In this document: positions 5,297 through 30,294 of the stretch, in pieces | How the letters are laid out: each line of letters begins with the position of its first letter | How positions within the stretch are numbered: the stretch's first letter is position 1 | From: Flavobacteriales bacterium | GTDB taxonomy: Bacteria; Bacteroidota; Bacteroidia; Flavobacteriales_D; Sanyastnellaceae | Assembly: GCA_027491075.1 (NCBI GenBank) | Contig: JAIXWX010000010.1 | Coordinates: forward strand, 62,001-126,000 | DNA: 64,000 nt | Reading direction: 5' to 3' | Program-made: the position numbers and the translations under genes | Notes under the pieces: model-generated | Databases searched by the model: none | Seen by the model: the letters and a program-made list of their open reading frames with translations, nothing else | What the model was told of the DNA's origin: nothing

Positions 5297-5997
5297 CCGA
5301 TTACAACCCTAATTCTCGTCGCTATTGGTTGTTTATTTTCCTCGCAGGATTGTTTGTGACCAATGCGATTACCGCTGAATTAATTTCCAATAAACTAGTA
5401 GAGATTCCCTTTAGTTTTTCGCTTTTTGGAAAACAATTTGGACCCTTTGTGACCATCGTCGGCATCCTTCCGTGGCCCGTGGTGTTTCTCTTGACCGATT
5501 TGATCAATGAGTTTTACGGCCAAAAAGCGATACGTCGCTTGAGCTGGATCACCGCGGTCTTGATCTCCTATTGCTTCGTGATCGTGTTGATAGCTTTGCA
5601 CGTCAACACGAAAGAAATCCCTGGTTCCGGCTTAGCCACCGATGAAGAGTTTAGAAAGGTTTTTGGACAAGCACCTTGGGTCATTGCAGGAAGTATAACT
5701 GCGTTTTTATTTTCTCAAATACTCGACGCCACCTTGTTTCATCGTATCAAACAATGGACGGGCAATAAGTACATCGGATTGAGAAGTACAGGCAGCACGA
5801 TGGTGTCGCAGTTGTTTGACAGTTACATTGTTTTGTACATCGGCTTTGTTTTGCCAGGAAGAATGAGCTGGTCGGATTACATGTCCATCGCTCCGACCAA
5901 TTACATTCTAAAACTGATCATCGCCATTTCGCTCACGCCGCTCATTTATCTCGGGCATTACGCTGTTCGGCGTTACCTTGGGGGGAATGAGAATTAG
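5293..5997 (+). CDS. Queuosine precursor transporter (YhhQ/COG1738 family)
   Basis: A 234-residue inner-membrane protein with about six hydrophobic segments. It contains family marks such as NAITAELISNKLVEIP near residue 24 and LLTDLINEFYGQKAIRR near residue 66, typical of COG1738 (DUF165) proteins. These import queuine or pre-queuosine bases used to modify tRNA wobble position 34. The start overlaps the stop of the secreted peptidase (ATGA), so the two are probably one transcript, although no functional link is evident. The family assignment is strong; the exact substrate (preQ0, preQ1 or queuine) cannot be told from sequence. Confidence 0.9.
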   Translation: MTDYNPNSRRYWLFIFLAGLFVTNAITAELISNKLVEIPFSFSLFGKQFGPFVTIVGILPWPVVFLLTDLINEFYGQKAIRRLSWITAVLISYCFVIVLIALHVNTKEIPGSGLATDEEFRKVFGQAPWVIAGSITAFLFSQILDATLFHRIKQWTGNKYIGLRSTGSTMVSQLFDSYIVLYIGFVLPGRMSWSDYMSIAPTNYILKLIIAISLTPLIYLGHYAVRRYLGGNEN

Positions 5998-6210
5998 TGA
6001 TTCGCAGTGACTGATTCGCAATGACTAATTCGAAATGACTAATTCGCAATTTTCAATTCGCAATTCTAAATTCTAAACTCCAAATTCTAAATTTCAAATT
6101 CTAAACTCCAAATTCTAAACTCCAAACTCCAAATTCTAAACTCCAAATTCCAAATTCTAAACTCCAAATTCCAAATTATAAATTCCAAATTCTAAACTCT
6201 AAACTCTAAA
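5998..6210. repeat. Low-complexity array of AATTCGCAA and AATTCTAAACTCC units
   Basis: The whole gap between the convergent transporter and pirin genes is repetitive. It starts with five imperfect ATTCGCAA-type units (5999-6070) and then passes into about 140 bp of alternating AAATTC, TAAACTCC and CAAATTC units. The first part shares its core with the array at 941-1229. The second part matches the arrays at 32935-33065 (inverted) and 33489-33640. No terminator hairpin is seen. Confidence 0.9.
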
Positions 6211-16313: not shown

Positions 16314-16882
16314 CTATTCCGTTTCGTCACAATACCCATTCCAAAATCTTTCAAGTGTTCGGTTAAATTTCAATTCTTCATTAAAAATCTCTTCTTTCCA
16401 TTTGTAATATTCCCGCTCATTTGCTTTGCTCCTTTTGTACTTTTCGGCATTGCTTCTAAAATAGTCGTTTTCTCCTGCAATGCCGTTTAATAATATTTGA
16501 TCTATTGTCGGGTAGATTGAATTTAATACACTTTCCAACTCAAGATTATTAAGATCTCAAAGACCAACGTATGTCTTCTTAAAAATCGCCACAATTTTCG
16601 CCATCTTATCAAAAGAACAATTATTACTGAACAACTCTTTCGCTTCAGAGATAATTTTTTCGCAATACCTTTCAAGTTAGCCGATAGTTCTATGCACAGT
16701 TCATCGTGAATTTAATGATAATCTCCACCTGTCCTAATATATTCATCAACGACAATCTGCAATTTGGAAGATTCTATTGCATCAGCAATAACTTTATTGG
16801 TTGTAAATCCTCTTCTCACCGCCGCGGCGGCTGTCCAGCAGGCGAAGTTGTGGAGGTGTTCGTTGGGAGTGTAGTCTTTCAT
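16314..16882 (-). pseudogene. Broken gene with stops and a frameshift, unknown family
   Basis: Read from the ATG at 16882, a protein starts MKDYTPNEHLHNFACWTAA and runs about 57 codons to a stop. Shifting by one base near 16670 restores coding (CEKIISEAKELFSNNCSFDK...), which is cut by a TGA near 16556 and then continues in the same frame (LNNLELESVLNSIYPTIDQ...) to a normal end at 16314. The opening motif, a TPNE...FA.WTA..A..RGFTT pattern, is known to me from small proteins near restriction systems, function unknown. Three lesions make it a clear pseudogene. The rest of the gap 16883-17087 shows no gene. Confidence 0.75.
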
Positions 16883-19626: not shown

Positions 19627-19926
19627 ATGAGCAATATTACATTTTGTGACTATATCAGAAAACGAAGGGAAGAAATAGAACTTCCATTGCGGAAGGTTGC
19701 TGCTTATCTCGACATTGATACTTCAACTCTCAGTAAAGTTGAACGTGGTGAGCGACCAGCATCACCTGACTATTTAAAACCGCTTTCAGAAATTTTGGAA
19801 CTGGACTTGAAAGAAGTGCAGACAACTTACATAGCAGACAAAATCACAAAAGACTTTGGTGGACTGGAACATTTAAGTGAAGGATTAAAAGAGGCGGAGA
19901 AACAGATAAAAAGAAACAAAAAGTAA
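19627..19926 (+). CDS. XRE-family HTH regulator
   Basis: A 99-residue protein with a helix-turn-helix of the XRE/Cro type: RKVAAYLDIDTSTLSKVERGER (about residues 22-43, longest helix pair) followed by a short basic C-terminal helix. Such proteins act as controllers that delay expression of the restriction enzyme until methylation is in place. The stop overlaps the next start as TAATG, so this is the first gene of a tightly coupled three-gene operon. An inverted repeat just upstream is a likely binding site. Confidence 0.88.
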   Translation: MSNITFCDYIRKRREEIELPLRKVAAYLDIDTSTLSKVERGERPASPDYLKPLSEILELDLKEVQTTYIADKITKDFGGLEHLSEGLKEAEKQIKRNKK

Positions 19927-22900
19927 TGGCAACTAAATTTTTTACAAATAAAGACGACAAAACCCTGATTGGTAAGTTCGAAGGAATATTTACCAATACT
20001 CATGTACATTACTTTGACGCATTAGTTGGCTTTTTCAGAGCTTCTGGTTATTTCAAAGTTAGACCTCTTCTAAAAGACGTTTCTAAAATCAGAATTTTGG
20101 TCGGTATTGATGTTGACCATTTAATTAGTGAAGCTGCAAGGAAAGGACTCGAATTCAATTTCAATACAGATGTAACCAGGGACGTATTTATCGCTGAACT
20201 GAAATCAGACATTCAAAATGCAGAATACAAAAGAAATGTTGAAGATGGAATTCTAGAATTTGTAAATGACATCATTGACAAAAAGATTGAAATCAAAGCA
20301 CACCCGAGCCAAAAACTTCATTCCAAAATTTACATTTTCAGACCAGAGAATTTTAACGAACATAATTCAGGTTCGGTAATCACAGGTTCAAGCAATCTTT
20401 CAGAATCAGGGCTTGAAAGGAATTTTGAATTCAATGTTGAGTTAAGAGACTTTGACGATGTGGCTTATGCTTTAAAAACTTTCAATGAACTGTGGGAAGA
20501 GAGCATTAGCATTATACCCTCGTCGATTGCCGAACTTAAAACAGAGACTTACCTGAACGAGGATTTCACTCCTTTTGAGGTTTACATCAAGTTTTTAATT
20601 GAATATTTTGGCAAGAGTATCGAGTACGACCCTGAATCTGTAACTGATTTACCAAAAGGTTATAAAAAGCTACATTATCAGATTGATGCGGTAAATGATG
20701 GCTATAACAAATTGGTTCAGCACAGCGGTTTTGTATTGGCAGACGTTGTGGGATTGGGTAAAACAATCATTGCCACTATAGTGGCAAAGAAGTTTTATTT
20801 CTCCAACGGCTACCGAACCAAAATACTAATTATTCATCCTCCAGCATTACGACCTAACTGGGAAAGAACTATTCGTGATTTCGAAGTTCCGAATGTTACA
20901 TTGATTACCAATGGTAGCTTACACAAGGTTACACACCCCGAAATATATGATTTAATCATTGTTGATGAAGCTCACAAATTCAGAAGTGATGAATCTGAAA
21001 TGTTCAACTTCCTTCAAAAAATTTGCAAGACTCCAAGAAAAAACCCTGCACCTGATGGAAGCAGAGAGAAAAAAGTAATTCTAGTTACAGCTACACCACT
21101 TAACAATAAACCTGATGATATCCGAAATCAGTTGTATTTATTCCAAGATGCAAAGAACTCAACTCTTGAAATCGGAAACTTACAACACTTTTTCAGACCA
21201 CTCATTGACCGATATGACAAACTGAAAAAACAAAAAGATAAATATATCATCGCTTCTGAGGTTAAGAAAATCTATGACGAAATCAGGGTTAAGGTTTTAG
21301 AACCAATCATCGTTAGAAGAACTCGTACCGACATTAGAAACACAGAAGAATATTGGAAGGACATTAAAGAACAAGGTTACACCTTCCCGGACATAGAGCC
21401 ACCAAGACAGATTCTTTATCAGATGGATTTGGAATTGAGTGAATTGTATGATGAAACGCTAAAGCAACTTAAAGACACAAAAAATGGCTTAAAGTATTTC
21501 CGCTATCAGGCAATAAAGTTTTTACCTGAAGAAATCAAAAAGAAATTTTTTAATAAGAATGCCGACATCATCTCCGAGTCATTGGCTAAAATCATGAAAA
21601 CGCTTTTGGTGAAAAGAATTGACAGCAGTTTTGAGGCCTTCAAAATGAGTTTAAAGCGTTACCATAATGCTAATACAGCTATGGTAAAGATGATTGAAAA
21701 CGGCAGAATTTTCATTGCTCCCAAATTGGGTGTGAATGACTACATCCTCAATGATGATGAAGAGAGCCTACAAAAGTTATTAGAAGATACCCAAGACCCG
21801 AATATCATTCAGGCATTTTCGGTAGAAGAATTTGCACCTGAATTTATTGTTGGCATTTACCACGACCAAAAGGTTTTGGACAAGTTGGTTGAAAGTTGGA
21901 ACAAAATAATCCAAGATCCCAAGTATGACGAATTGGTTTTCAGACTGAAAAATGAGTTGATGAATAGAGACATCAACGACAACAGGAAACTCATACTTTT
22001 CAGTGAGTCGAAGGAAACAACTGATTATATCAGTAAAAGGTTGAAAAAAGACGGCTTTGAAAGATTGATTGCAGTGGACAGTTCTAATCAAAAAGACCTT
22101 TCAGAAATAATTGCTGCAAACTTTGATGCAAACCTAAAACTAGAAGAACAAAAGAATGATTACGACATCATCATTACCACAGAAGTTTTGGCTGAGGGTG
22201 TAAACCTTCACCGTTCTAATGTTATTGTAAATTATGACATTCCGTGGAACGCAACCCGTTTGATGCAGCGTATTGGGCGTGTAAACCGTATTGGTACGCC
22301 TTCGGATAAAGTGTATATTTATAATTTTTTTCCAACCGCAAAAACAGATAATGAAATAGAGTTGAATAAAAAGGCTTACATCAAGCTTCAAGCTTTTCAC
22401 TCTGCATTGGGAGAGGATAGCCAAATCTACTCAGATGATGAGGAATACGGAACTTTTGGATTGTTCGAGAAAGTACCCGAGGAAGAACGAGATGAGCGTT
22501 TAATATTCCTAAATGAGTTAAGAAAGTTCAAGGACGAGCAACCAGAATTTTATAAAAAGATTCGTGACCGTGTGCCAAAACGAGCAAGGACCGGCAGAAA
22601 CGACAAGAGCAGAAAAGAAACATCATTGGTGTATATCAAAAACCAAAAACGTGACAGTTTTTATTACATCAACAACAAATTGGAGTTTGAAGAACTTACT
22701 TTCATTGAGGCTGCTCGAATATTCAAAGCACACATAACTGAAAAGGCAGTACGGCTTCACCAATTTCACCACGACCAAATCGGAACAGCACTTCAAACTT
22801 TCAGAGAAGAAGAAAATCTTGCTGCATTAGGGCAGTTAGGAACTGTAAAGATGGGGCCGAACGACCAACGGGCCATTGAGTATTTACACGGTCAAATTCA

Positions 22901-23219
22901 TTTTAACTTTGTAAGTCCTGGTGAAAAAGAGTTACTGAATGCTGCCAAAGCAGCCATTTCTAAAGGTAAATTTCAAAAATTACCAAGAGAGATAAACAAA
23001 CTGGCAAAAGAACGGAAACGACTTTTTGAGGATTCACGCAAAAATCCTACGGTGAAACCCATGACCAATATAGATGCATTTCAGCAGTTGATTAGAATTC
23101 TGAAAGCTTATCCATTGATTGATGCCATGAAAGAAGACGAGCAGGAACCGAAAACAAAGAAACTTGAAACCAGGTACAACGCACCGCAGATAATTATATC
23201 AGAATCATTCGTAGGCTAA
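19926..23219 (+). CDS. PLD-nuclease/SNF2-type helicase, restriction component
   Basis: A 1097-residue protein. Residues 1-210 form a phospholipase-D-like nuclease domain with HSKIYIF (about 131) and GSSNLSESGLE (about 155), i.e. one HxK motif; activity would need dimerisation. The SF2/SNF2 helicase follows: Walker A DVVGLGKT (about 277), DEAH box VDEAHKF (about 346), VTATPLNN motif III (about 398), and the C-terminal motifs TTEVLAEGVNL and RLMQRIGRVNRIG (about 755-785). It probably couples ATP-driven movement on DNA to cleavage. It shares TAATG overlaps with both the regulator before and the methyltransferase after, so the three form one unit, most likely an ATP-dependent restriction-modification system. 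It lacks DISARM's DUF1998 gene. Confidence 0.87.
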   Translation: MATKFFTNKDDKTLIGKFEGIFTNTHVHYFDALVGFFRASGYFKVRPLLKDVSKIRILVGIDVDHLISEAARKGLEFNFNTDVTRDVFIAELKSDIQNAEYKRNVEDGILEFVNDIIDKKIEIKAHPSQKLHSKIYIFRPENFNEHNSGSVITGSSNLSESGLERNFEFNVELRDFDDVAYALKTFNELWEESISIIPSSIAELKTETYLNEDFTPFEVYIKFLIEYFGKSIEYDPESVTDLPKGYKKLHYQIDAVNDGYNKLVQHSGFVLADVVGLGKTIIATIVAKKFYFSNGYRTKILIIHPPALRPNWERTIRDFEVPNVTLITNGSLHKVTHPEIYDLIIVDEAHKFRSDESEMFNFLQKICKTPRKNPAPDGSREKKVILVTATPLNNKPDDIRNQLYLFQDAKNSTLEIGNLQHFFRPLIDRYDKLKKQKDKYIIASEVKKIYDEIRVKVLEPIIVRRTRTDIRNTEEYWKDIKEQGYTFPDIEPPRQILYQMDLELSELYDETLKQLKDTKNGLKYFRYQAIKFLPEEIKKKFFNKNADIISESLAKIMKTLLVKRIDSSFEAFKMSLKRYHNANTAMVKMIENGRIFIAPKLGVNDYILNDDEESLQKLLEDTQDPNIIQAFSVEEFAPEFIVGIYHDQKVLDKLVESWNKIIQDPKYDELVFRLKNELMNRDINDNRKLILFSESKETTDYISKRLKKDGFERLIAVDSSNQKDLSEIIAANFDANLKLEEQKNDYDIIITTEVLAEGVNLHRSNVIVNYDIPWNATRLMQRIGRVNRIGTPSDKVYIYNFFPTAKTDNEIELNKKAYIKLQAFHSALGEDSQIYSDDEEYGTFGLFEKVPEEERDERLIFLNELRKFKDEQPEFYKKIRDRVPKRARTGRNDKSRKETSLVYIKNQKRDSFYYINNKLEFEELTFIEAARIFKAHITEKAVRLHQFHHDQIGTALQTFREEENLAALGQLGTVKMGPNDQRAIEYLHGQIHFNFVSPGEKELLNAAKAAISKGKFQKLPREINKLAKERKRLFEDSRKNPTVKPMTNIDAFQQLIRILKAYPLIDAMKEDEQEPKTKKLETRYNAPQIIISESFVG

Positions 23220-26200
23220 TGACAAAAGAAGAACTACACGAACATTTAAGAGCCGAATATTCACGGGACAATTGGAAGAAAATTGTAAACGCCATCTTCC
23301 CCAACCGTGAATTTTTTACCACTGAAGAGCCTGTGGATATGACCAAGCAGGCACAACGTGACCTTACACAGAAAATCATTCGTTTTGGTAACATCAAACT
23401 GGATGATGGTAATAGTTTGGCATTATATGAAGTTGAACTCAAAACTAATGCTACACACATCACCCGCAACCGTGTTGGCTTACGCAATTTGATTACCAAT
23501 GAAGTAATTCCTGGGGTGGTAGATGGTGCCTTGATTGTTTACCACCAACCGGGACATAACGACTGGCGTTTTTCCTTTTACTCCAAGTCGAAATATTGGG
23601 ATGATGAAGGCAATGAGATAAAGAAAGAAACACACCCCAAGCGATACACTTATGTATTGGGCAAAGACGAAACTTGTGTAACACCCAGAGAACGTTTTTG
23701 GCATTTGGTAGAAAAGCGAACCCGAACAATAAAGGATGTATTAGAGGCATTCTCAGTAGAAAAGGTTTCCAAGGAGTTTTTCGTAAAGTATAAAAAGCAT
23801 TATCAGGCATTTGTTGAAAGCCTGATAGATTCAAATTTCAAAGCCAGCATCTTTAATGGCAATGAAAAAGCCATTCGTGACTTTGTAAAGAAAATGTTGG
23901 GCAGGATTGTCTTTCTTCAATTCCTACAAAAGAAAGGCTGGTTAGATGTTGCACAAGACAAACACTATGGAGAAGGCAACAAGAATTTCTTAGCAGAATT
24001 TTTTGAAGCCAATTGCAATGATGTCTTTTACAGCAACTGTCTTGTGCCCTTATTCTTTGAAACACTTAACAATCCGAAGGATGAAGTTTTCAAAGTAACC
24101 AAAACCAAGTTTCCTTATCTGAATGGTGGTTTGTTTGAACGTGATGAAATTGAAAAGAAAGCCAAAGCCGATTTCATTGTTTTCAAAAAAGAACTGTTTG
24201 AAAACCTGTTCTCATTTTTTGGCGAATACAATTTCACCATTGATGAAAGTACGCCTGATGATTTGGATGTGGGTATTGACCCTGAAATGCTTGGGCACAT
24301 TTTTGAAAACCTACTCGAAGATAACCGTGAGAAAGGGGCTTTTTATACGCCCAAACTCATTGTGCAATACATGTGTCAGGAAGTATTGATTCAATACCTT
24401 GAACTAAACTTGGGCAAACATGAAGCCATTGCTAACTTCATCCGATATAAAGACCGTGGAGATGAAAAAGCCAAAGACAACTTTATACGAAACAACGCAT
24501 CCCAAATTGAAAAGCTTCTAGATGATGTAAAAATTTGTGACCCAGCTATTGGTTCGGGTGCTTTTCCTATGGGATTGTTGCAGGAAATATTTCACGCCAA
24601 ACTGGCTTTGGACTGGACTTTACTCGATAAAAAAGGTGAGGTCAAACGAGCCATTATACAAAACTCTATTTATGGAGTGGATAAAGACAAAGGTGCGGTG
24701 GATATTGCACGTTTGCGTTTTTGGTTGAGTTTGATTGTAGATGAAGAGGTAAAGAAAGGCGAAAAGCCACAACCACTACCCAACTTCGATTACAAAATCA
24801 TGCAAGGAGATTCTTTGCTTGAAAGTTTCAAAGGGTATTCTTTAAAGTATCACGACATACAAGAAGAGCCACAACAAACAGATTTATTTAATACACAAAC
24901 ACAGGTTAATCTGTTTAAGAAAACACATACCGATTTAGCTAAACTCGAAAAGGATTTTTTTGACCCGAAAAACAACCACCGTAAAGAAGAAATACGAAAT
25001 GAAATTGATGCTTTGGTGGCTCATAGTATTGAGCAATCGTTTAAAGACTTGATTGCTGAAAAGAAAAAGACAGTTGCATCCATTTCAAGAAACTTTGCTC
25101 CAGATAAAAGCCGCAAAACAAAACAGGAGAAAAACATAGCAACATTAGATGCAGAAATTGAGGATATGCAACAGGCCTTGAAAGACATTAAACCACTTTT
25201 AAAAAAAGATGAAAAGCCTTGGTTTATGTGGCATTTGTACTTCAAAGATGTGTTTGATAAAGGTGGTTTTGATATTGTGATAGGTAACCCACCCTACATA
25301 CGACAGGAAAACATTACCGACATTAAACCCTATTTAGAGAAGATTGACGGTAAACCTAATTATGAAGTGTACAACAGCACCAGCGACATTTATACCTACT
25401 TCTTTGAATTGGGGCATAAAATTTTGAAGCAGGAAAAAGGGGTTTTCTCTTATATCTGTTCAAAGAAATATACAAGAGCAAAATATGGGCAAAACTTGCG
25501 TAAATACCTGTTGTCAAAAACCCAATTGAGCGGATATGTTGATTTTAATGAAGTTCAGGTATTTGGTGCAACAGTTGATACCTCAATTATTTTCTTTCGG
25601 AAATCATCAAAGCCATCAGATAACTACTCTTTTACATTCTGTCTTGTTGGGAATGATTTGCAAAGGAATGAACCACTTATTGATTATATTAATAAAAATG
25701 GAAATAAATATCAAAGAAAGTATTTAAATGATTCAAGTTGGTCATTTGCTGATAAATTTTCTGAGTATGTTAAACAAATAATTGAGATGGTACCCAAGAA
25801 ATTAAAAGATTGGAATACTGAAATCAATTATGGGATTAAGTCAGGTTGCAATGAGGCTTTTTACATTAATGAAAAAACAAGAAACATACTTATTTCTGAA
25901 AATCCAGCTTGCGCAGATTACATAAAGCCCCTTTTACGAGGTAGGGACATAAAACGTTTTATTACCGACTATAAAAAGCAGTATCTGATTTTTATAAGAC
26001 GAAATGATGATGTTACAAGGATTAATAATATTCTTACTTATTTGAATCAATACAGAGAAAGATTGGAGCCAAGGCCCCTTGAATGGCAGCCTTTACGTAA
26101 TGGAGAGAAATGGAAGGGCAGAAAATCTGGGCCTTATAAATGGTATGAAATACAAGATAATGTGGCTTACTACTCGGATTTTGAAAGGGAAAAAATTGTA

Positions 26201-26797
26201 TGGTTAGTTCTTTCTGATAAAGCAACCTTTGCTATTGACAAAGAAGGTTATTACACCAACGATAGTACCTTTATAATGTTAGGTGCAAATTTAGAGTACT
26301 TATGTTCTATCTTAAATTCTAAATTGTGTGAATGGTACTTTGATAAGATAGCTACTAGTTCAGGTGTTGGTACAAACATGTGGAAGAAGGCATACATCGA
26401 ACAAATCCCAATTCCTGAAATTCCCAAGATGGAAATGAAGCCATTTGAGATTTTGGTGGATTACATCACCTTCATCAAAAAATATTCAGAACGCATCAGT
26501 CCATATACTCCCAACGACCACATGGCAGCCAACTTTGAAGAACTGGTAGATGCCTGTGTGTATGAATTGTATTTCAAGGAACACATGGAGGAGAAAGGTA
26601 TTGCTGTTTTAAAAGAAGTAAACCAACTTCTAAAACCCATAGACCACCTGGATGAAAAAACACAGGCGGACAAGATTGTGAGAATCATCAATTCGGTATA
26701 TGACGAATACAAAAGCACCGACAACATTATCCGCAGGCGTATTTTAGACTTTCCGGTGAAAAGTCCTGACATCATCAATGTAATACAGAATGGGTAA
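23219..26797 (+). CDS. Eco57I-like adenine DNA methyltransferase
   Basis: A 1192-residue class I N6-adenine methyltransferase. The N-terminal 200 residues include ALYEVELKT (about 70-76), which may be a degenerate or active PD-(D/E)xK nuclease core as in type IIG enzymes. Methyltransferase motifs are GAFYTPKLIVQYM (about 374), the SAM-binding DPAIGSGAF (about 441) and the catalytic IGNPPY (about 690). The C-terminal third (about 850-1120) resembles the TaqI-type target-recognition domain, e.g. RGRDIKRF and NSKLCEWYF. It would mark self DNA for the helicase-nuclease encoded just upstream. It could also cut on its own if the N-terminal nuclease is active. Confidence 0.9.
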   Translation: MTKEELHEHLRAEYSRDNWKKIVNAIFPNREFFTTEEPVDMTKQAQRDLTQKIIRFGNIKLDDGNSLALYEVELKTNATHITRNRVGLRNLITNEVIPGVVDGALIVYHQPGHNDWRFSFYSKSKYWDDEGNEIKKETHPKRYTYVLGKDETCVTPRERFWHLVEKRTRTIKDVLEAFSVEKVSKEFFVKYKKHYQAFVESLIDSNFKASIFNGNEKAIRDFVKKMLGRIVFLQFLQKKGWLDVAQDKHYGEGNKNFLAEFFEANCNDVFYSNCLVPLFFETLNNPKDEVFKVTKTKFPYLNGGLFERDEIEKKAKADFIVFKKELFENLFSFFGEYNFTIDESTPDDLDVGIDPEMLGHIFENLLEDNREKGAFYTPKLIVQYMCQEVLIQYLELNLGKHEAIANFIRYKDRGDEKAKDNFIRNNASQIEKLLDDVKICDPAIGSGAFPMGLLQEIFHAKLALDWTLLDKKGEVKRAIIQNSIYGVDKDKGAVDIARLRFWLSLIVDEEVKKGEKPQPLPNFDYKIMQGDSLLESFKGYSLKYHDIQEEPQQTDLFNTQTQVNLFKKTHTDLAKLEKDFFDPKNNHRKEEIRNEIDALVAHSIEQSFKDLIAEKKKTVASISRNFAPDKSRKTKQEKNIATLDAEIEDMQQALKDIKPLLKKDEKPWFMWHLYFKDVFDKGGFDIVIGNPPYIRQENITDIKPYLEKIDGKPNYEVYNSTSDIYTYFFELGHKILKQEKGVFSYICSKKYTRAKYGQNLRKYLLSKTQLSGYVDFNEVQVFGATVDTSIIFFRKSSKPSDNYSFTFCLVGNDLQRNEPLIDYINKNGNKYQRKYLNDSSWSFADKFSEYVKQIIEMVPKKLKDWNTEINYGIKSGCNEAFYINEKTRNILISENPACADYIKPLLRGRDIKRFITDYKKQYLIFIRRNDDVTRINNILTYLNQYRERLEPRPLEWQPLRNGEKWKGRKSGPYKWYEIQDNVAYYSDFEREKIVWLVLSDKATFAIDKEGYYTNDSTFIMLGANLEYLCSILNSKLCEWYFDKIATSSGVGTNMWKKAYIEQIPIPEIPKMEMKPFEILVDYITFIKKYSERISPYTPNDHMAANFEELVDACVYELYFKEHMEEKGIAVLKEVNQLLKPIDHLDEKTQADKIVRIINSVYDEYKSTDNIIRRRILDFPVKSPDIINVIQNG

Positions 26798-26877
26798 ACA
26801 TGTTGAAATACAAATACCTAGATTTTTTTTCTGCAAACTTTTCTTTGAAAACGTTTACGGAATTCAAAAACTTGTTT

Positions 26878-26885
26878 TACTTTCG
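26878..26885 (+). promoter_or_regulatory. Candidate -7 element for the hairpin RNA and abi gene
   Basis: TACTTTCG differs from the Bacteroidota consensus TAnnTTTG at one base and predicts a start near 26889-26891, just before the hairpin. No good TTTG lies at the normal -33 spacing. Confidence 0.4.
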
Positions 26886-26888
26886 CAT

Positions 26889-26946
26889 CAACATGTCCAC
26901 CCCCCTTCCCGTTAGATCAGGGCGCTCAGGGTGGACTTTTTATTTT
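26889..26946 (+). ncRNA. Hairpin RNA candidate upstream of the AbiF-type gene
   Basis: An 8-bp perfect stem, GTCCACCC (26895-26902) with GGGTGGAC (26929-26936), encloses a 26-base loop in which CCCT and AGGG can pair again. It is followed at once by TTTTTATTTT, ending two bases before the abi start codon. It could be simply a terminator for the methyltransferase operon. However, it lies 98 bases from that gene and directly against abi, and Abi_2/AbiF proteins are known to be paired with structured RNAs encoded just upstream that keep them inactive. I favour the RNA antitoxin reading. Confidence 0.55.
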
Positions 26947-26947
26947 C

Positions 26948-27946
26948 ATGCCTATGCCTAGAGTGCCATATATCAAACCGGCACTCAGTTATGCCGATCA
27001 ACTTCAACAGTTAAAAGATAGGGGGCTTATCATAGAAAGTGAGGCCAAAGCCTTGCATTTACTCGAAAACATCAGCTATTACCGACTTAGTGGCTATTGG
27101 CATCCAATGCTAGCACAACCAAAAACTACTCATAATTTCAAACCTGGTTCAACTTTTAATAATGCGTTTAAGCTCTATTGCTTCGACCGGGAGCTTAGAA
27201 AAGTAATTTTAGGTGAACTTGAGAAAATCGAAGTCGCAATTCGTGCCAAGATGATTTACGAATTGTCCCATAGGCACGGTTCATTTTGGTATACATTACC
27301 CGGAATCTTTACGAACGCAAACAATCATGCAAAGACGCTCCTTAAGATTACCGATGAATTTACACGGAGCGATGAAAAATTCATTTTGGATTTTAAACAA
27401 AAATATCTTGATCCGATGCCTCCTAGTTGGATGATGTTAGAACTGACATCGTTTGGGAGTTTATCTATGTTGTATAAAAATTTATCCGGCACACATGACC
27501 GAAGAGATTTAGCCCACTATTTTGGCCTTGATGACACTACATTTGAATCGTGGCTTCACAGTATAGTTTATGTGCGAAATGTTTGTGCCCATCATTCTAG
27601 GCTGTGGAGCAGGGTGATGCGTATTACTCCTGCGATTCCTGCAAATCCAAGGTACACCTTTCTGAATCACACGATTATCTATGACCCAACAACTGGAAGA
27701 CCCACGAATAATAACAGAACTTATTTCTTGTTGAGCATGCTTATTTATTGGCTTAACATCATCAACCCTAAGCATACGTTTAAAAACAAACTTTTCAGAT
27801 TACTTAAATCCTACCCAATGGTAGACGTCAGGGCTATGGGGTTCCCTTCAAACTGGGAAACAGAACCCATATGGAACTGGCAAAAAGTAATTGATGATGA
27901 AAAATGGTTTAATCGCATTTTAAAGACATTTGGAATCAAAAAGTAA
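26948..27946 (+). CDS. AbiF-type abortive infection protein (Abi_2, HEPN ribonuclease)
   Basis: A 332-residue Abi_2 family protein (PF07751). Family marks are the N-terminal QLQQLKDRGLII, the YYRLSGYWHP block (about 47-56), FDRELRKVILGELEKIEVAIR (about 80-100) and PSWMMLELTSFGSLSMLYKNL. The HEPN active site RxxxxH appears as RNVCAHH near residue 211. Members are toxic RNA-cleaving proteins, related to the HEPN domains of Cas13, held in check until infection. The hairpin RNA candidate ends two bases upstream, and the ATPase gene begins at the very next base after this stop, so RNA, HEPN protein and ATPase may form one system. Confidence 0.9.
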   Translation: MPMPRVPYIKPALSYADQLQQLKDRGLIIESEAKALHLLENISYYRLSGYWHPMLAQPKTTHNFKPGSTFNNAFKLYCFDRELRKVILGELEKIEVAIRAKMIYELSHRHGSFWYTLPGIFTNANNHAKTLLKITDEFTRSDEKFILDFKQKYLDPMPPSWMMLELTSFGSLSMLYKNLSGTHDRRDLAHYFGLDDTTFESWLHSIVYVRNVCAHHSRLWSRVMRITPAIPANPRYTFLNHTIIYDPTTGRPTNNNRTYFLLSMLIYWLNIINPKHTFKNKLFRLLKSYPMVDVRAMGFPSNWETEPIWNWQKVIDDEKWFNRILKTFGIKK

Positions 27947-29695
27947 ATGGCTAAAAAGTACTTACATAGCATAGAGTTGCAAAACTTCAAGGCGTTTCCT
28001 TATAACGCTGAAATAAAATTTAATGGTAGGCATGCTTTAGTTTTTGGTGTTAATGGTAGTGGAAAGTCTTCTATTTTTTGGGCATTATATACAGCATTAC
28101 AGTGTAGTGGTAAGAAACCTAATGAACACAAGAAGTATTTTGAAAAAATTACTCCGCTTTCACAAAGTTTAAGAAATGTATATCAAAAAGACGAAGTTGA
28201 TTCCTTCATTCATTTGAATTTCAAAGAAAAAAACAGCAAGTCCCTAACATCCTTTAAGCTTTCTGAAACGGATGATGATTGTAAAGACCCATTTATTAAA
28301 CAAGTAAATTCATCAAGTGAATTTATTACGCATCGCTTGCTATTGAACTTTAGTAATTTCAGGAACTCTGAACCACTAAATCTCTGGCCATTTTTCTTAC
28401 GTGATATTATCCCATTTGCCCAAAGCAGCACTGGCATTAACCTTCTTGAGCTCTACAATAAAATAATTGATGGATGCAATAACAACGAGAAGATTGCAAC
28501 ACTAAACAAATGGCGTAGCGAATTTAATAACGCACTGGAAGACCTTATAGACCCTTTGAAACTAAAAGGGAGCTCAAGTCTAGTTAGTCAATATTATAAC
28601 ACATATTTAGCGAGAGATGGTGAAAAAGCTGAAATAGGCGTTTATGTCCAAAGTCCCCTTGAAGAGTTTGATAGGAACAGGCAAGTTTCAAAAATCAAGA
28701 TTCACCTAACAGCTACATTTGGTGATGACAAGACGGGATTAATTAATATTGACAAACCGCATATCTTCTTCAATGAAGCAAGGATAAACGCAATTGCATT
28801 GGCAATTCGTTTCGTTTTGATGGAAGTAAGAAAAAAGAACTCTCTAGCAGGCCATGAAGATGATTTGAATCTATTAGTTTTAGATGACTTACTAATAAGC
28901 TTGGATTTGAACAATCGTCTAAAAGTGATTGATTTGGTCATTGATAAGTATTCGGAGGATTATCAAATTATCATTCTAACCCACGAAAAAGGTTTTTATA
29001 ACGAGCTTAAAAGAAAAATACATGACAATATCAGCAAATGGCAGTTGATGGTATTTGAACCAACTCCTATTCATGAAAATCCGAAAATCAGATATGACAG
29101 AAGTGATTTTCTAACAAAAGCAATTGATAACTATAAAAATGGTGATTATGAAGCCTGTGCTTTGTATTTGCGAAAAGAAACAGAATCAATTCTCGGTAAA
29201 TACACTGACCCTGAACTAAAATATATTTGGGCCAATACAAGTTGGACAAGCCTTGGTTCTATGATTGAATCTTTACTTAATAAGTCAGACGAAAGCCAAC
29301 TATTAGGTGATTTACGAAGCCTCCTAAAGAAAATGAAACTTACTAAGGAGGAGTTAGAAGACTTAAAGGGCGATTTAGATACCAATACAAAGTATAATGC
29401 TACACCCCCTATAAAACGTAATCAACTAAAATCTTTCAAGCGAGATTGGCTAAATCTATTTATAAGAATTTTGGAAGAGAAAAACGAATCTTCAGCTGCA
29501 AGAGAAATGGCAGGTAAAATACTAACTATCAAAAACAGGTGTTTGAATCCTGGTGCTCATTTCAACGAATCACCTCTTTTTAAAGAGGAGATTGAAGAAG
29601 CCATTGAAACTGTAATTGAAATCAAAAAAATCATTGCGAACCAGAATGTGAAACTATATGTAAAACGCTGTCAACAGGCAGGGATGAAAATTTAA
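27947..29695 (+). CDS. AAA/ABC-type ATPase, probable partner of the Abi protein
   Basis: A 582-residue P-loop ATPase of the RecF/SMC-like group. Walker A is GVNGSGKSS (about residues 33-41) after a typical SIELQNFKAF opening. NEARINAIALAIRF (about 278-291) stands in the ABC signature place, Walker B is NLLVLDDLLISLD (about 305-317), and the H-loop is IILTHE (about 345-350). The C-terminal 200 residues are helical (LTKAIDNYKNGDYEACALYLRKE...) with no recognised domain. Such ATPases act as sensors in OLD-, septu- and retron-type defence systems. It starts with no gap after the Abi stop, a strong sign of coupling. Its 3' end overlaps the truncated Fic gene on the other strand. Confidence 0.82.
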   Translation: MAKKYLHSIELQNFKAFPYNAEIKFNGRHALVFGVNGSGKSSIFWALYTALQCSGKKPNEHKKYFEKITPLSQSLRNVYQKDEVDSFIHLNFKEKNSKSLTSFKLSETDDDCKDPFIKQVNSSSEFITHRLLLNFSNFRNSEPLNLWPFFLRDIIPFAQSSTGINLLELYNKIIDGCNNNEKIATLNKWRSEFNNALEDLIDPLKLKGSSSLVSQYYNTYLARDGEKAEIGVYVQSPLEEFDRNRQVSKIKIHLTATFGDDKTGLINIDKPHIFFNEARINAIALAIRFVLMEVRKKNSLAGHEDDLNLLVLDDLLISLDLNNRLKVIDLVIDKYSEDYQIIILTHEKGFYNELKRKIHDNISKWQLMVFEPTPIHENPKIRYDRSDFLTKAIDNYKNGDYEACALYLRKETESILGKYTDPELKYIWANTSWTSLGSMIESLLNKSDESQLLGDLRSLLKKMKLTKEELEDLKGDLDTNTKYNATPPIKRNQLKSFKRDWLNLFIRILEEKNESSAAREMAGKILTIKNRCLNPGAHFNESPLFKEEIEEAIETVIEIKKIIANQNVKLYVKRCQQAGMKI

Positions 29696-29845
29696 GTCTG
29701 GAATCATTCTGAAGGCTTCCCATAAACTGAAATGTTCAAATTCATCCAACTCCCCTCGTGTGGAAATGGTGGAAATCAATAACCCTTCCTTCTCCTCTTC
29801 GTCAATAGGGGTTTGACCGTTGAGGTGTTCTAAATTCAATCCCAT
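29654..29845 (-). pseudogene. 5' remnant of mobile mystery protein B (Fic family)
   Basis: The first 37 or so codons (MGLNLEHLNGQTPIDEEEKE... STRGELDEFE) match the N-terminus of mobile mystery protein B, a Fic/DOC-domain protein normally of about 200 residues. Homology stops near 29735; the remaining codons run through unrelated sequence into the end of the ATPase gene. The HPFxxGNGR catalytic motif is absent, so it is inactive. The start overlaps the stop of protein A by about ten bases, as in intact A-B pairs. Confidence 0.82.
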
Positions 29846-30294
29846 AAAATCTTTGGCATTTCTTTTTGAATGATTGCAGCCCTTTCTTTTATGGCTTTTT
29901 CAATGCGCTTTTTTGAATTGCCTTGATCTTCCAATTTCATGGTAGTGGATGTTCGCATCACAATTTGAGATGCTAAGGCGATAGCTCGTTTTTCAATCAA
30001 CGCATCTAACGATCCATCATTTGGTATGAATCCATATACCAATTGCATGTCTAAAGCATGAGCAACTTCCCTTAGTGACTTGATAGTAATTGAACCTTCC
30101 TTCTCTCTTTTTTCAATGTCCATCACGCCTTGTTTAGAGATGTTCAACTTGTTTCCGAGCTGCTGCATAGACATACCAATTGCCAAGCGTATGGCTTTTA
30201 CCCACCCCGTTGGAGGCATCGCTATTTGCTTTAAAGTCGCAAATCCTCTCATTTTGCTGTTAAGTTGTTGCAGTTGAAGTGATTTTGTATTCAT
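29836..30294 (-). CDS. Mobile mystery protein A (HTH regulator)
   Basis: A 152-residue member of the mobile mystery protein A family (TIGR02612). An XRE-type HTH lies at about residues 35-90 (IGMSMQQLGNKLNISKQGVMDIEKREKEG...), preceded by the family opening LQLQQLNSKM and PPTGWVKAIR. The family always travels with protein B, a Fic-domain protein, on mobile elements; A is thought to act as regulator or antitoxin. Here B is reduced to its first codons, so A is an orphan. It has a clear promoter with an overlapping palindrome, which suggests autoregulation. Confidence 0.9.
   Translation of the reverse strand: MNTKSLQLQQLNSKMRGFATLKQIAMPPTGWVKAIRLAIGMSMQQLGNKLNISKQGVMDIEKREKEGSITIKSLREVAHALDMQLVYGFIPNDGSLDALIEKRAIALASQIVMRTSTTMKLEDQGNSKKRIEKAIKERAAIIQKEMPKILWD

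Follow-up and report, generated by a model that had tools for sequence, protein, structure and literature searches.

AbiF proteins held by RNA antitoxins and AbiF genes within restriction operons are both already in print. In the published pairs the RNA binds AbiF and blocks its toxic ribonuclease (RNase) activity (PMC12373285, PMC12737573; papers given by PMC number are cited here from excerpts), and AbiF has been described as the ancestor of Cas13 (PMC12737573, PMC12948488). The present analysis concerns a 64,000-nucleotide stretch of a Flavobacteriales bacterium (the window, G000:C17:62001-126000; the genome, G000, has 3.02 Mb) and an island in it that carries, in this order on the + strand, an HTH gene, a PLD-SNF2 helicase (HEL), a methylase (MT), a hairpin RNA, AbiF and an ATPase (ATP). 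We read the RNA and AbiF as a type III-like toxin-antitoxin cassette placed between MT and ATP of an HTH-PLD/SNF2 helicase-methylase-ATPase restriction operon, and give this reading a probability of about 0.82, which covers the cassette and its place but not a guard function alone. At the level of sequence it was established how the genes are arranged, that the RNA keeps its fold and goes with AbiF, and that the ATPase keeps company with helicase and methylase. Added to the published picture are an RNA type missed by Rfam RF03085, the host operon and a shared 25-bp upstream element; for the RNA type the claim is limited to the absence of a match in Rfam 15, and it is not presented as undescribed.

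PbAbiF and its non-coding RNA, reportedly of Prevotellaceae, are said to have been described by Zilberzwige-Tal et al. in Cell in 2025. PbAbiF, which according to excerpts of other papers was solved together with its RNA, is the closest solved chain to the window AbiF (PDB 8vz6, 'Abi family protein', E 3.6e-68, residues 5-309). Both have the AbiF family, an R-N-x3-H motif and an RNA partner in common, but PbAbiF is nearest to the clade with RF03085-type RNA (60% identity to its member L063, 40% to the window protein), whereas the window AbiF stands in another clade with another RNA type. The AbiFCd-RCd22 pair of C. difficile resembles the window in its RNA directly upstream, its promoter, its terminator and its HEPN RNase toxin, and RCd22 neutralises AbiFCd both in cis and in trans (PMC12373285). 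RCd22 holds two RF03085 motifs on a transcript of ~100-130 nt in a prophage lysis module (PMC12373285), whereas the window has one hairpin without RF03085 match in a restriction operon. Table 1 of Anantharaman et al. 2013 gives Abi2/AbiF/AbiD as embedded in restriction-modification operons (PMC3710099), in principle the same arrangement; the excerpt of that paper mentions no RNA partner of AbiF and, unlike the window, no operon of PLD-SNF2 helicase, methylase and SMC-like ATPase. An RNA-AbiF cassette in a PLD-helicase/methylase/ATPase operon was not found in the literature searched.

The hairpin RNA and its upstream elements

The stem of the hairpin GUCCACCC...GGGUGGAC spans 26895-26936, a T-rich tail runs on to 26946, and the ATG of AbiF is found at 26948. 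The outer stem (26895-26902/26929-26936) continues into an inner stem (26903-26906/26919-26922), with the bulge CGCUCA on the 3' side. The 56-nt RNA folds at -19.3 kcal/mol compared with a mean of -12.15 for shuffled sequences (z -2.78; 1 of 200 shuffles was as good). A hairpin with a promoter-like box just before an Abi_2 gene, as the sequence-only reading had described it, was thus confirmed by sequence and fold.

Covariation was looked for upstream of Abi_2 genes, as the same reading had proposed. Each of 8 related RNAs keeps the full set of 12 stem pairs (96 of 96 cells paired), and two-sided changes were observed at 6 of the 12; the second inner pair, for example, is G-C in five RNAs and C-G in three, the window being among the latter. 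Slid controls reached at most 51% pairing and at most one pair with a two-sided change. Four of five covariation measures were above nearly all shuffles, although the shuffle counts are not probabilities because the 8 alignment rows are related. A parser that accepted only fully paired stems with bulges of 3-7 bases fitted 33 of 35 RNAs (L063 and L078 had no parse). The same parse of outer stem, short inner stem and 3'-side bulge fits the window type as well as the RF03085-like RNAs of L064, L073 and L066; the RF03085-type RNAs of L063 and L076 gave none. RF03085 itself matched 4 of 28 sampled AbiF loci, and at relaxed E values Rfam returned only chance-level matches for 26600-27100 (rli38, E 7; sR42, E 8.6).

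The consensus of the Bacteroidota -7 element is TAnnTTTG. Of 33 homologous RNAs, 22 have an exact TAnnTTTG in the 22 nt preceding the stem, compared with 0.8% of random 22-mers. The scan of 26700-27050 found no terminator and a single sigma-70-like site, at 27004-27033 and away from the box (0.8 expected by chance). In L173, a Desulfobulbaceae metagenome-assembled genome (MAG), AbiF comes next after helicase and methylase genes, and the RNA (16781-16844, - strand) lies on the strand opposite to AbiF, with its own box and a T-run, which overlaps the methylase stop at 16780-16782. Because of this orientation an attenuator in the AbiF leader is impossible there, in what is one case in a MAG. Judged by these comparisons the RNA is a gene of its own.

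The 25-bp element TTTGAAAANGTTTACRGAATTCAAA sits 9 bases before the promoter box and has the ends TTTGAA/TTCAAA. At no more than one mismatch it occurred at three sites in the 395 genomes of the class, namely in the window, in L068 (6873-6897) and in L080 (6904-6928), each time just upstream of an AbiF RNA and among restriction genes, the AbiF proteins coming from different clades. Because the search pattern was derived from these same sites, the informative part is only that no others were found. Degenerate copies with 19 and 20 of the 25 bases were present in L048 and L053.

Coupling of the RNA to AbiF

The window AbiF belongs to Abi_2 (Pfam E 7.3e-58, 196.3 bits versus a cut-off of 25.6) and matches PADLOC AbiD (E 9.9e-78). 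The HEPN motif RNVCAH that had been noticed in the letters was confirmed from residue 210 on (nt 27575-27592), and the R(N/H/D)xxxH motif was present in 35 of 35 tree rows. Relatives were found in 35 of the 395 class genomes. Plasmids often carry the family, with matches at E<=1e-20 in 381 of 72,556 records, and a search of viral contigs confirmed none. By analogy with the published proteins AbiF is probably an RNase toxin held by the hairpin RNA.

A covariance model was built from 8 RNA rows, window included, and run on 45 sources holding 7 of the training rows. Apart from the window itself (26885-26944, E 3.8e-19, a training row), it yielded 10 non-training matches at E<=0.01 (L062, L065, L068, L069, L070, L071, L074, L078, L082, L090), all of them upstream of AbiF. 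Weaker matches, up to E 1, were upstream of AbiF in L061, L079 and L084; another was at 889-927 of the window (E 0.7). Among 80 helicase loci (1.27 Mb; the best 80 of 584 related stretches) the sole match at E<=1 was the training row L173, the only one of these loci with AbiF, and the 79 control loci without AbiF gave no match at this threshold.

With strict filters and a threshold of E<=0.01 the model produced 25 matches, spread over 24 of the 395 class genomes and counting the 7 training rows. Four of these (G304, G292, G305, G260) were terminator-like and were dropped by eye, leaving 21 plausible RNA loci, 16 of which lie at an AbiF gene or fragment. AbiF was broken at three of the 16: in L053 residues ~250-331 are left, in L090 85 residues, and in L082 the gene is split. 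The other five loci have no AbiF gene; L202 keeps approximately the first 30 residues, and L203, L204, L205 and L207 showed no match. Altogether, intact AbiF is missing at 8 of the 21 loci.

Some of these remnants deserve mention on their own. In L053 (12544-12939, genome G129) a near-identical RNA is followed, after 48 bases, by the last ~82 AbiF residues, which are 80-83% identical to the window; here the toxin with its HEPN site was lost and the RNA retained. L207 (G165:C23, ~5950-6100, - strand) carries type I HsdM, HsdS and HsdR genes with two tandem AbiF-type hairpins just before HsdR, and no AbiF gene was detected there. In L205 (G052:C17, 6016-6075) a Cas9-like gene lies on the opposite strand ~2 kb from an AbiF-type RNA, and no AbiF match was found nearby.

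When the analysis started from the protein, an RNA was found upstream in 32 of 37 AbiF loci with an AbiF open reading frame (ORF); L091, an AbiF fragment without a called ORF, is outside the 37. Most of the 32 come from a loose hairpin search that has no chance rate; L063, L066, L073 and L076 were found by RF03085, and L060 and L070 by other means. The loose search misfired on L060 and L066, where the RNA was found otherwise. The five AbiF loci without RNA form one separate group of the tree (100/100), and the remaining 30 tree rows, window and L173 included, all have an RNA; in this sample every full-length AbiF of the RNA-bearing clade came with an RNA. The window-type RNA marks an AbiF clade of seven (99/98) and the RF03085-type RNA a clade of five (100/100; four by Rfam, L064 by eye). 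On the protein tree the latter is probably the sister of the window-type clade (joined at 94/89). Two further RNA label groups, set by the authors, do not form clades (4 changes are needed for B, 6 for D), so that the correspondence between RNA type and AbiF clade is strict for the window and RF03085 types only.

Loss of the toxin with retention of the RNA, and not the reverse, is what a toxin-antitoxin pair predicts. As in type III systems, the RNA lies beside the gene of a protein that is probably an RNase toxin, and in the sample the toxin was not kept without the RNA. Covariation, model searches, the tree and the opposite-strand RNA of L173 all favour the RNA toxin-antitoxin pair proposed in the sequence-only reading, and these comparisons support the hairpin as a structurally conserved small RNA gene coupled to AbiF.

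ATPase and host operon

Coordinates of the island are collected in Table 1. The HTH stop overlaps the HEL start, and HTH proteins of 97-125 aa are encoded upstream of the helicase in L115, L057 and L056 too. MT also matches PADLOC REase_MTase_IIG (1.4e-142). The ATPase gene begins at the base after the Abi stop, as had been stated before: the TAA of AbiF occupies 27944-27946 and the ATG of the ATPase follows at 27947. Directly after the island a gene for mobile mystery protein A lies on the - strand (29697-30294). Below it, a short stretch may correspond to the beginning of a gene for mobile mystery protein B, perhaps cut by the island; a search for protein B gave one weak match, on another contig, and none beside the island.

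Table 1. Features of the island in the window
Feature	Position	Strand	Basis
Small HTH regulator, opens the restriction operon	19627..19926	+	Pfam HTH_3 E 4.1e-10
HEL, PLD-nuclease + SNF2 helicase, operon core	19926..23219	+	Pfam PLDc_2 1.4e-9, SNF2-rel_dom 4.9e-10, Helicase_C 4.6e-17
MT, type IIG-like adenine methylase with TaqI_C specificity domain	23219..26797	+	Pfam Eco57I 1.5e-39, TaqI_C 2e-19
25-bp operator- or promoter-like element TTTGAAAANGTTTACRGAATTCAAA	26844..26868	+	Pattern search, 395 class genomes
RNA promoter box TACTTTCG, TAnnTTTG type with one mismatch	26878..26885	+	Box scan of homologous RNAs
Hairpin RNA, probable antitoxin	26889..26944 (ends estimated)	+	Fold, covariation, covariance model, upstream conservation in AbiF loci
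AbiF/AbiD (Abi_2) HEPN protein, probable RNase toxin	26948..27946	+	Pfam, PADLOC, PDB 8vz6 match, motif
ATP, SMC/Rad50/PtuA-like ABC ATPase, gene of the helicase-methylase operon	27947..29695	+	Pfam, Foldseek, MT-ATP adjacency

The ATPase matches SMC_N and AAA_23 in Pfam, and no other family passes its cut-off. Foldseek showed a resemblance to retron PtuA complexes, SMC and Rad50 heads (query TM-scores 0.30-0.41), which, together with the sequence, places the modelled head with those of SMC, Rad50 and PtuA. The C-terminal part (29084-29695) is all-helical in the model, with a conserved LNPxSH-like motif. In the relative L108 DUF4145 (E 0.0013) and HEPN (E 0.0019) appeared below cut-off, and the window ATPase gives neither. 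A HEPN-like domain in this part is only a lead, and since model confidence is low there (mean pLDDT 67) the HEPN fold stays unproven.

Relatives of the ATPase were detected in 13 of the 395 class genomes. At all 11 judgeable loci found with the ATPase as query (L054, L055, L056, L057, L059, L010, L011, L213, L214, L216, L217) the gene directly follows a methylase. The helicase was in view at 8 of them; the stretches of L010, L011 and L214 end before reaching its position. Six further MT-ATP loci (L099, L103, L108, L112, L115, L117) came from the helicase search and are therefore near a helicase by construction. In the resulting 17 of 17 judgeable relatives MT and ATP are separated by -4 to +21 bp, with no sign of AbiF, whereas the window gap of 1149 bp is filled by the RNA-AbiF cassette. 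Three loci were set aside as not judgeable: in L058 the gene is a fragment near a contig end and what is left of the stretch holds no methylase, in L105 it is partial and separated from the methylase by two ORFs, and L215 begins right at a contig end. Also uncounted were five weak relatives, L009 (59 bits, on a short stretch that shows no methylase), L012, L013, L014 and L129. L015 and L016 repeat L056 and L059, and L214 and L217, seemingly near copies, were counted as two. Conversely, the ATPase was present in 0 of the 37 AbiF loci, and besides G000 a single genome (G393) has relatives of both AbiF and ATPase, on different contigs. Gene neighbourhood shows that the ATPase belongs with the helicase-methylase pair and not with AbiF; the tight AbiF-ATPase junction follows from the place of the cassette.

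The helicase-methylase core recurs in records of many phyla (L097-L176) with changing neighbours. Ten genes lying within or next to other HEL-MT operons, in nine of the 80 loci and in L055, were chosen by hand and annotated. Nine of them were Schlafen AlbA_2 (L101, L103, L119), AbiEii (L102), SIR2 (L126), ApeA-HEPN (L139), PLD/NgoFVII-like (L146), GmrSD (L176) and YhcG (L055) genes; the tenth, a lipase in L106, is unrelated. Another Schlafen gene is found in L213 and a KilA-N gene in L216. From these annotations the host operon has exchangeable neighbour genes. AbiF cassettes in turn lie among restriction genes in 7 of the 37 AbiF loci, of type I in L049, L061, L068, L072, L078 and L080 and type III-like in L067; some of these assignments come from weak matches, such as HsdR in L078 at 57 bits, and annotation covered only part of the neighbours. 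A helicase search in 114 genomes of the family found, at E<=1e-100, the own genome only, which leaves no presence/absence comparison among near relatives.

Regarding known systems, HEL reaches no NCBIfam cut-off, and the operon as a whole reached that of no curated NCBIfam system. The combination of helicase, methylase and ATPase follows the logic of the Hma/DUF499 BREX-related systems, whose Type-2 BR helicases carry an N-terminal HKD (PLD) nuclease and whose loci contain accessory HEPN and Schlafen effectors (PMC8565338, PMC12839542). The window ATPase differs in being SMC/AAA_23-like. DUF499 and DUF3780 were not found in Pfam scans of the operon proteins, and among the matches listed (25 of 27) for seven ATPase members at E<=0.1 there was no DUF499; Hma / DUF499 BR was rejected for want of a DUF499-type ATPase (HmaC). 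DISARM was rejected as well (DrmD helicase 151.5 bits versus a cut-off of 610), and likewise Septu (PtuAB), with PtuA at 25.4 bits versus 500 and no HNH PtuB partner; the next gene, on the other strand, is that of mobile mystery protein A. The best PADLOC match of HEL was C3a139 'HKD+Snf2' (148 bits, E 9.3e-44), a candidate model of one protein, unlike the multi-gene operon of the window.

Alternative explanations and proposed working

Several observations weigh against a toxin-antitoxin cassette tied to a restriction operon. The window RNA alone folds best in another inner register, with GGG paired to CCC five bases downstream; the register backed by comparison is the homologous inner stem CCCU/AGGG. 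The fifth covariation measure, further pair types, was below the shuffles (6 versus 8.9), the box TACTTTCG is off TAnnTTTG by one base, and RF03085 gave no match at its gathering score, nor at E<=10 on 26600-27100. Type III antitoxin RNAs are often tandem repeats, and the window has a single unit; two tandem hairpins are visible in L030, L041 and L207. AbiF was present in 1 of the 80 helicase loci, and the ATPase is no constant part of the operon, with a relative in 7 of the 46 helicase-methylase loci whose sequence continues for 1500 bp or more past the methylase. Moreover, 30 of the 37 AbiF loci were not recognised as restriction operons, their neighbours being partly annotated; clustering of genes in islands may therefore account for the link to restriction. 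These 30 loci would agree with an RNA-AbiF passenger, selfish or neutral, that landed in the operon and plays no part in restriction, as would the frequently broken cassettes (L053, L082, L084, L090) and the frequency of the family on plasmids. We take this possibility seriously but would not bet on it, given the same-strand place of the cassette between two genes that otherwise abut or overlap, the occurrence of cassettes in type I, type III and helicase-methylase operons, and the defence genes of other families in sister operons.

That the hairpin might be a mere terminator or attenuator of the methylase-AbiF transcript, with no role in trans, is improbable. Its T-rich end would suit a terminator, and the C. 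difficile AbiF RNA does work in cis by premature termination, although also in trans (PMC12373285). However, the conserved inner stem, loop and 3' bulge exceed what a terminator needs, the RNA has its own promoter box and, in L173, lies on the opposite strand, it was retained after AbiF loss, and its type tracks the AbiF clade for two types; with covariation and the model matches, L173, the retained RNAs and the tree led us to reject a plain terminator. A very small chance is left to the idea, raised in the sequence-only reading, that an SMC-like ATPase is the third part of an RNA-AbiF-ATPase system, sensing infection and releasing AbiF. AbiF and ATPase may be co-translated across their abutting TAA-ATG, the ATPase fold resembles PtuA, and broadly similar ABC ATPases sense phage proteins in PARIS (PMC12839542), but the MT-ATP adjacency in every judgeable relative without any AbiF, its absence from the AbiF loci and the lone second genome with both genes speak otherwise, and on these counts the ATPase was rejected as AbiF partner. 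It is hardly credible that the RNA guides AbiF to phage RNA in a Cas13-like manner: AbiF has been described as a precursor of Cas13 (PMC12737573, PMC12948488), but the window-type RNAs are alike in stem, loop and bulge and show no spacer-like variable stretch, and one review, as excerpted, holds that AbiF lacks RNA-targeting specificity.

For the toxin-antitoxin cassette, published AbiF work suggests a working in which a hairpin RNA of ~55 nt would be made from its own promoter, bind the AbiF dimer and block its RNase. If a phage stopped RNA supply or defeated the restriction layer, the RNA would presumably run out first, and freed AbiF would cut RNA and halt the cell. The cassette would thereby probably serve as a suicide backup to the restriction operon, and as an addiction element on it. 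Rather doubtful is the further proposal that RNA-AbiF pairs are plug-in suicide guards of restriction operons, in which RNA supply would be tied to the state of restriction through the 25-bp element and the position, and a block of restriction would free AbiF; the window would then be an example in a PLD-helicase/methylase/ATPase operon.

The locus supplies, with covariation, an RNA type that the public RNA library misses, and it corrects the idea of the ATPase as a third part of AbiF systems. It also draws attention to a recurrent helicase-methylase operon in which suicide or nuclease genes are interchangeable. With an RNA-AbiF pair inside a restriction operon, the trigger of AbiF becomes testable; if the guard proposal were true, a phage that blocks restriction would lose the cell its RNA antitoxin and set AbiF free.

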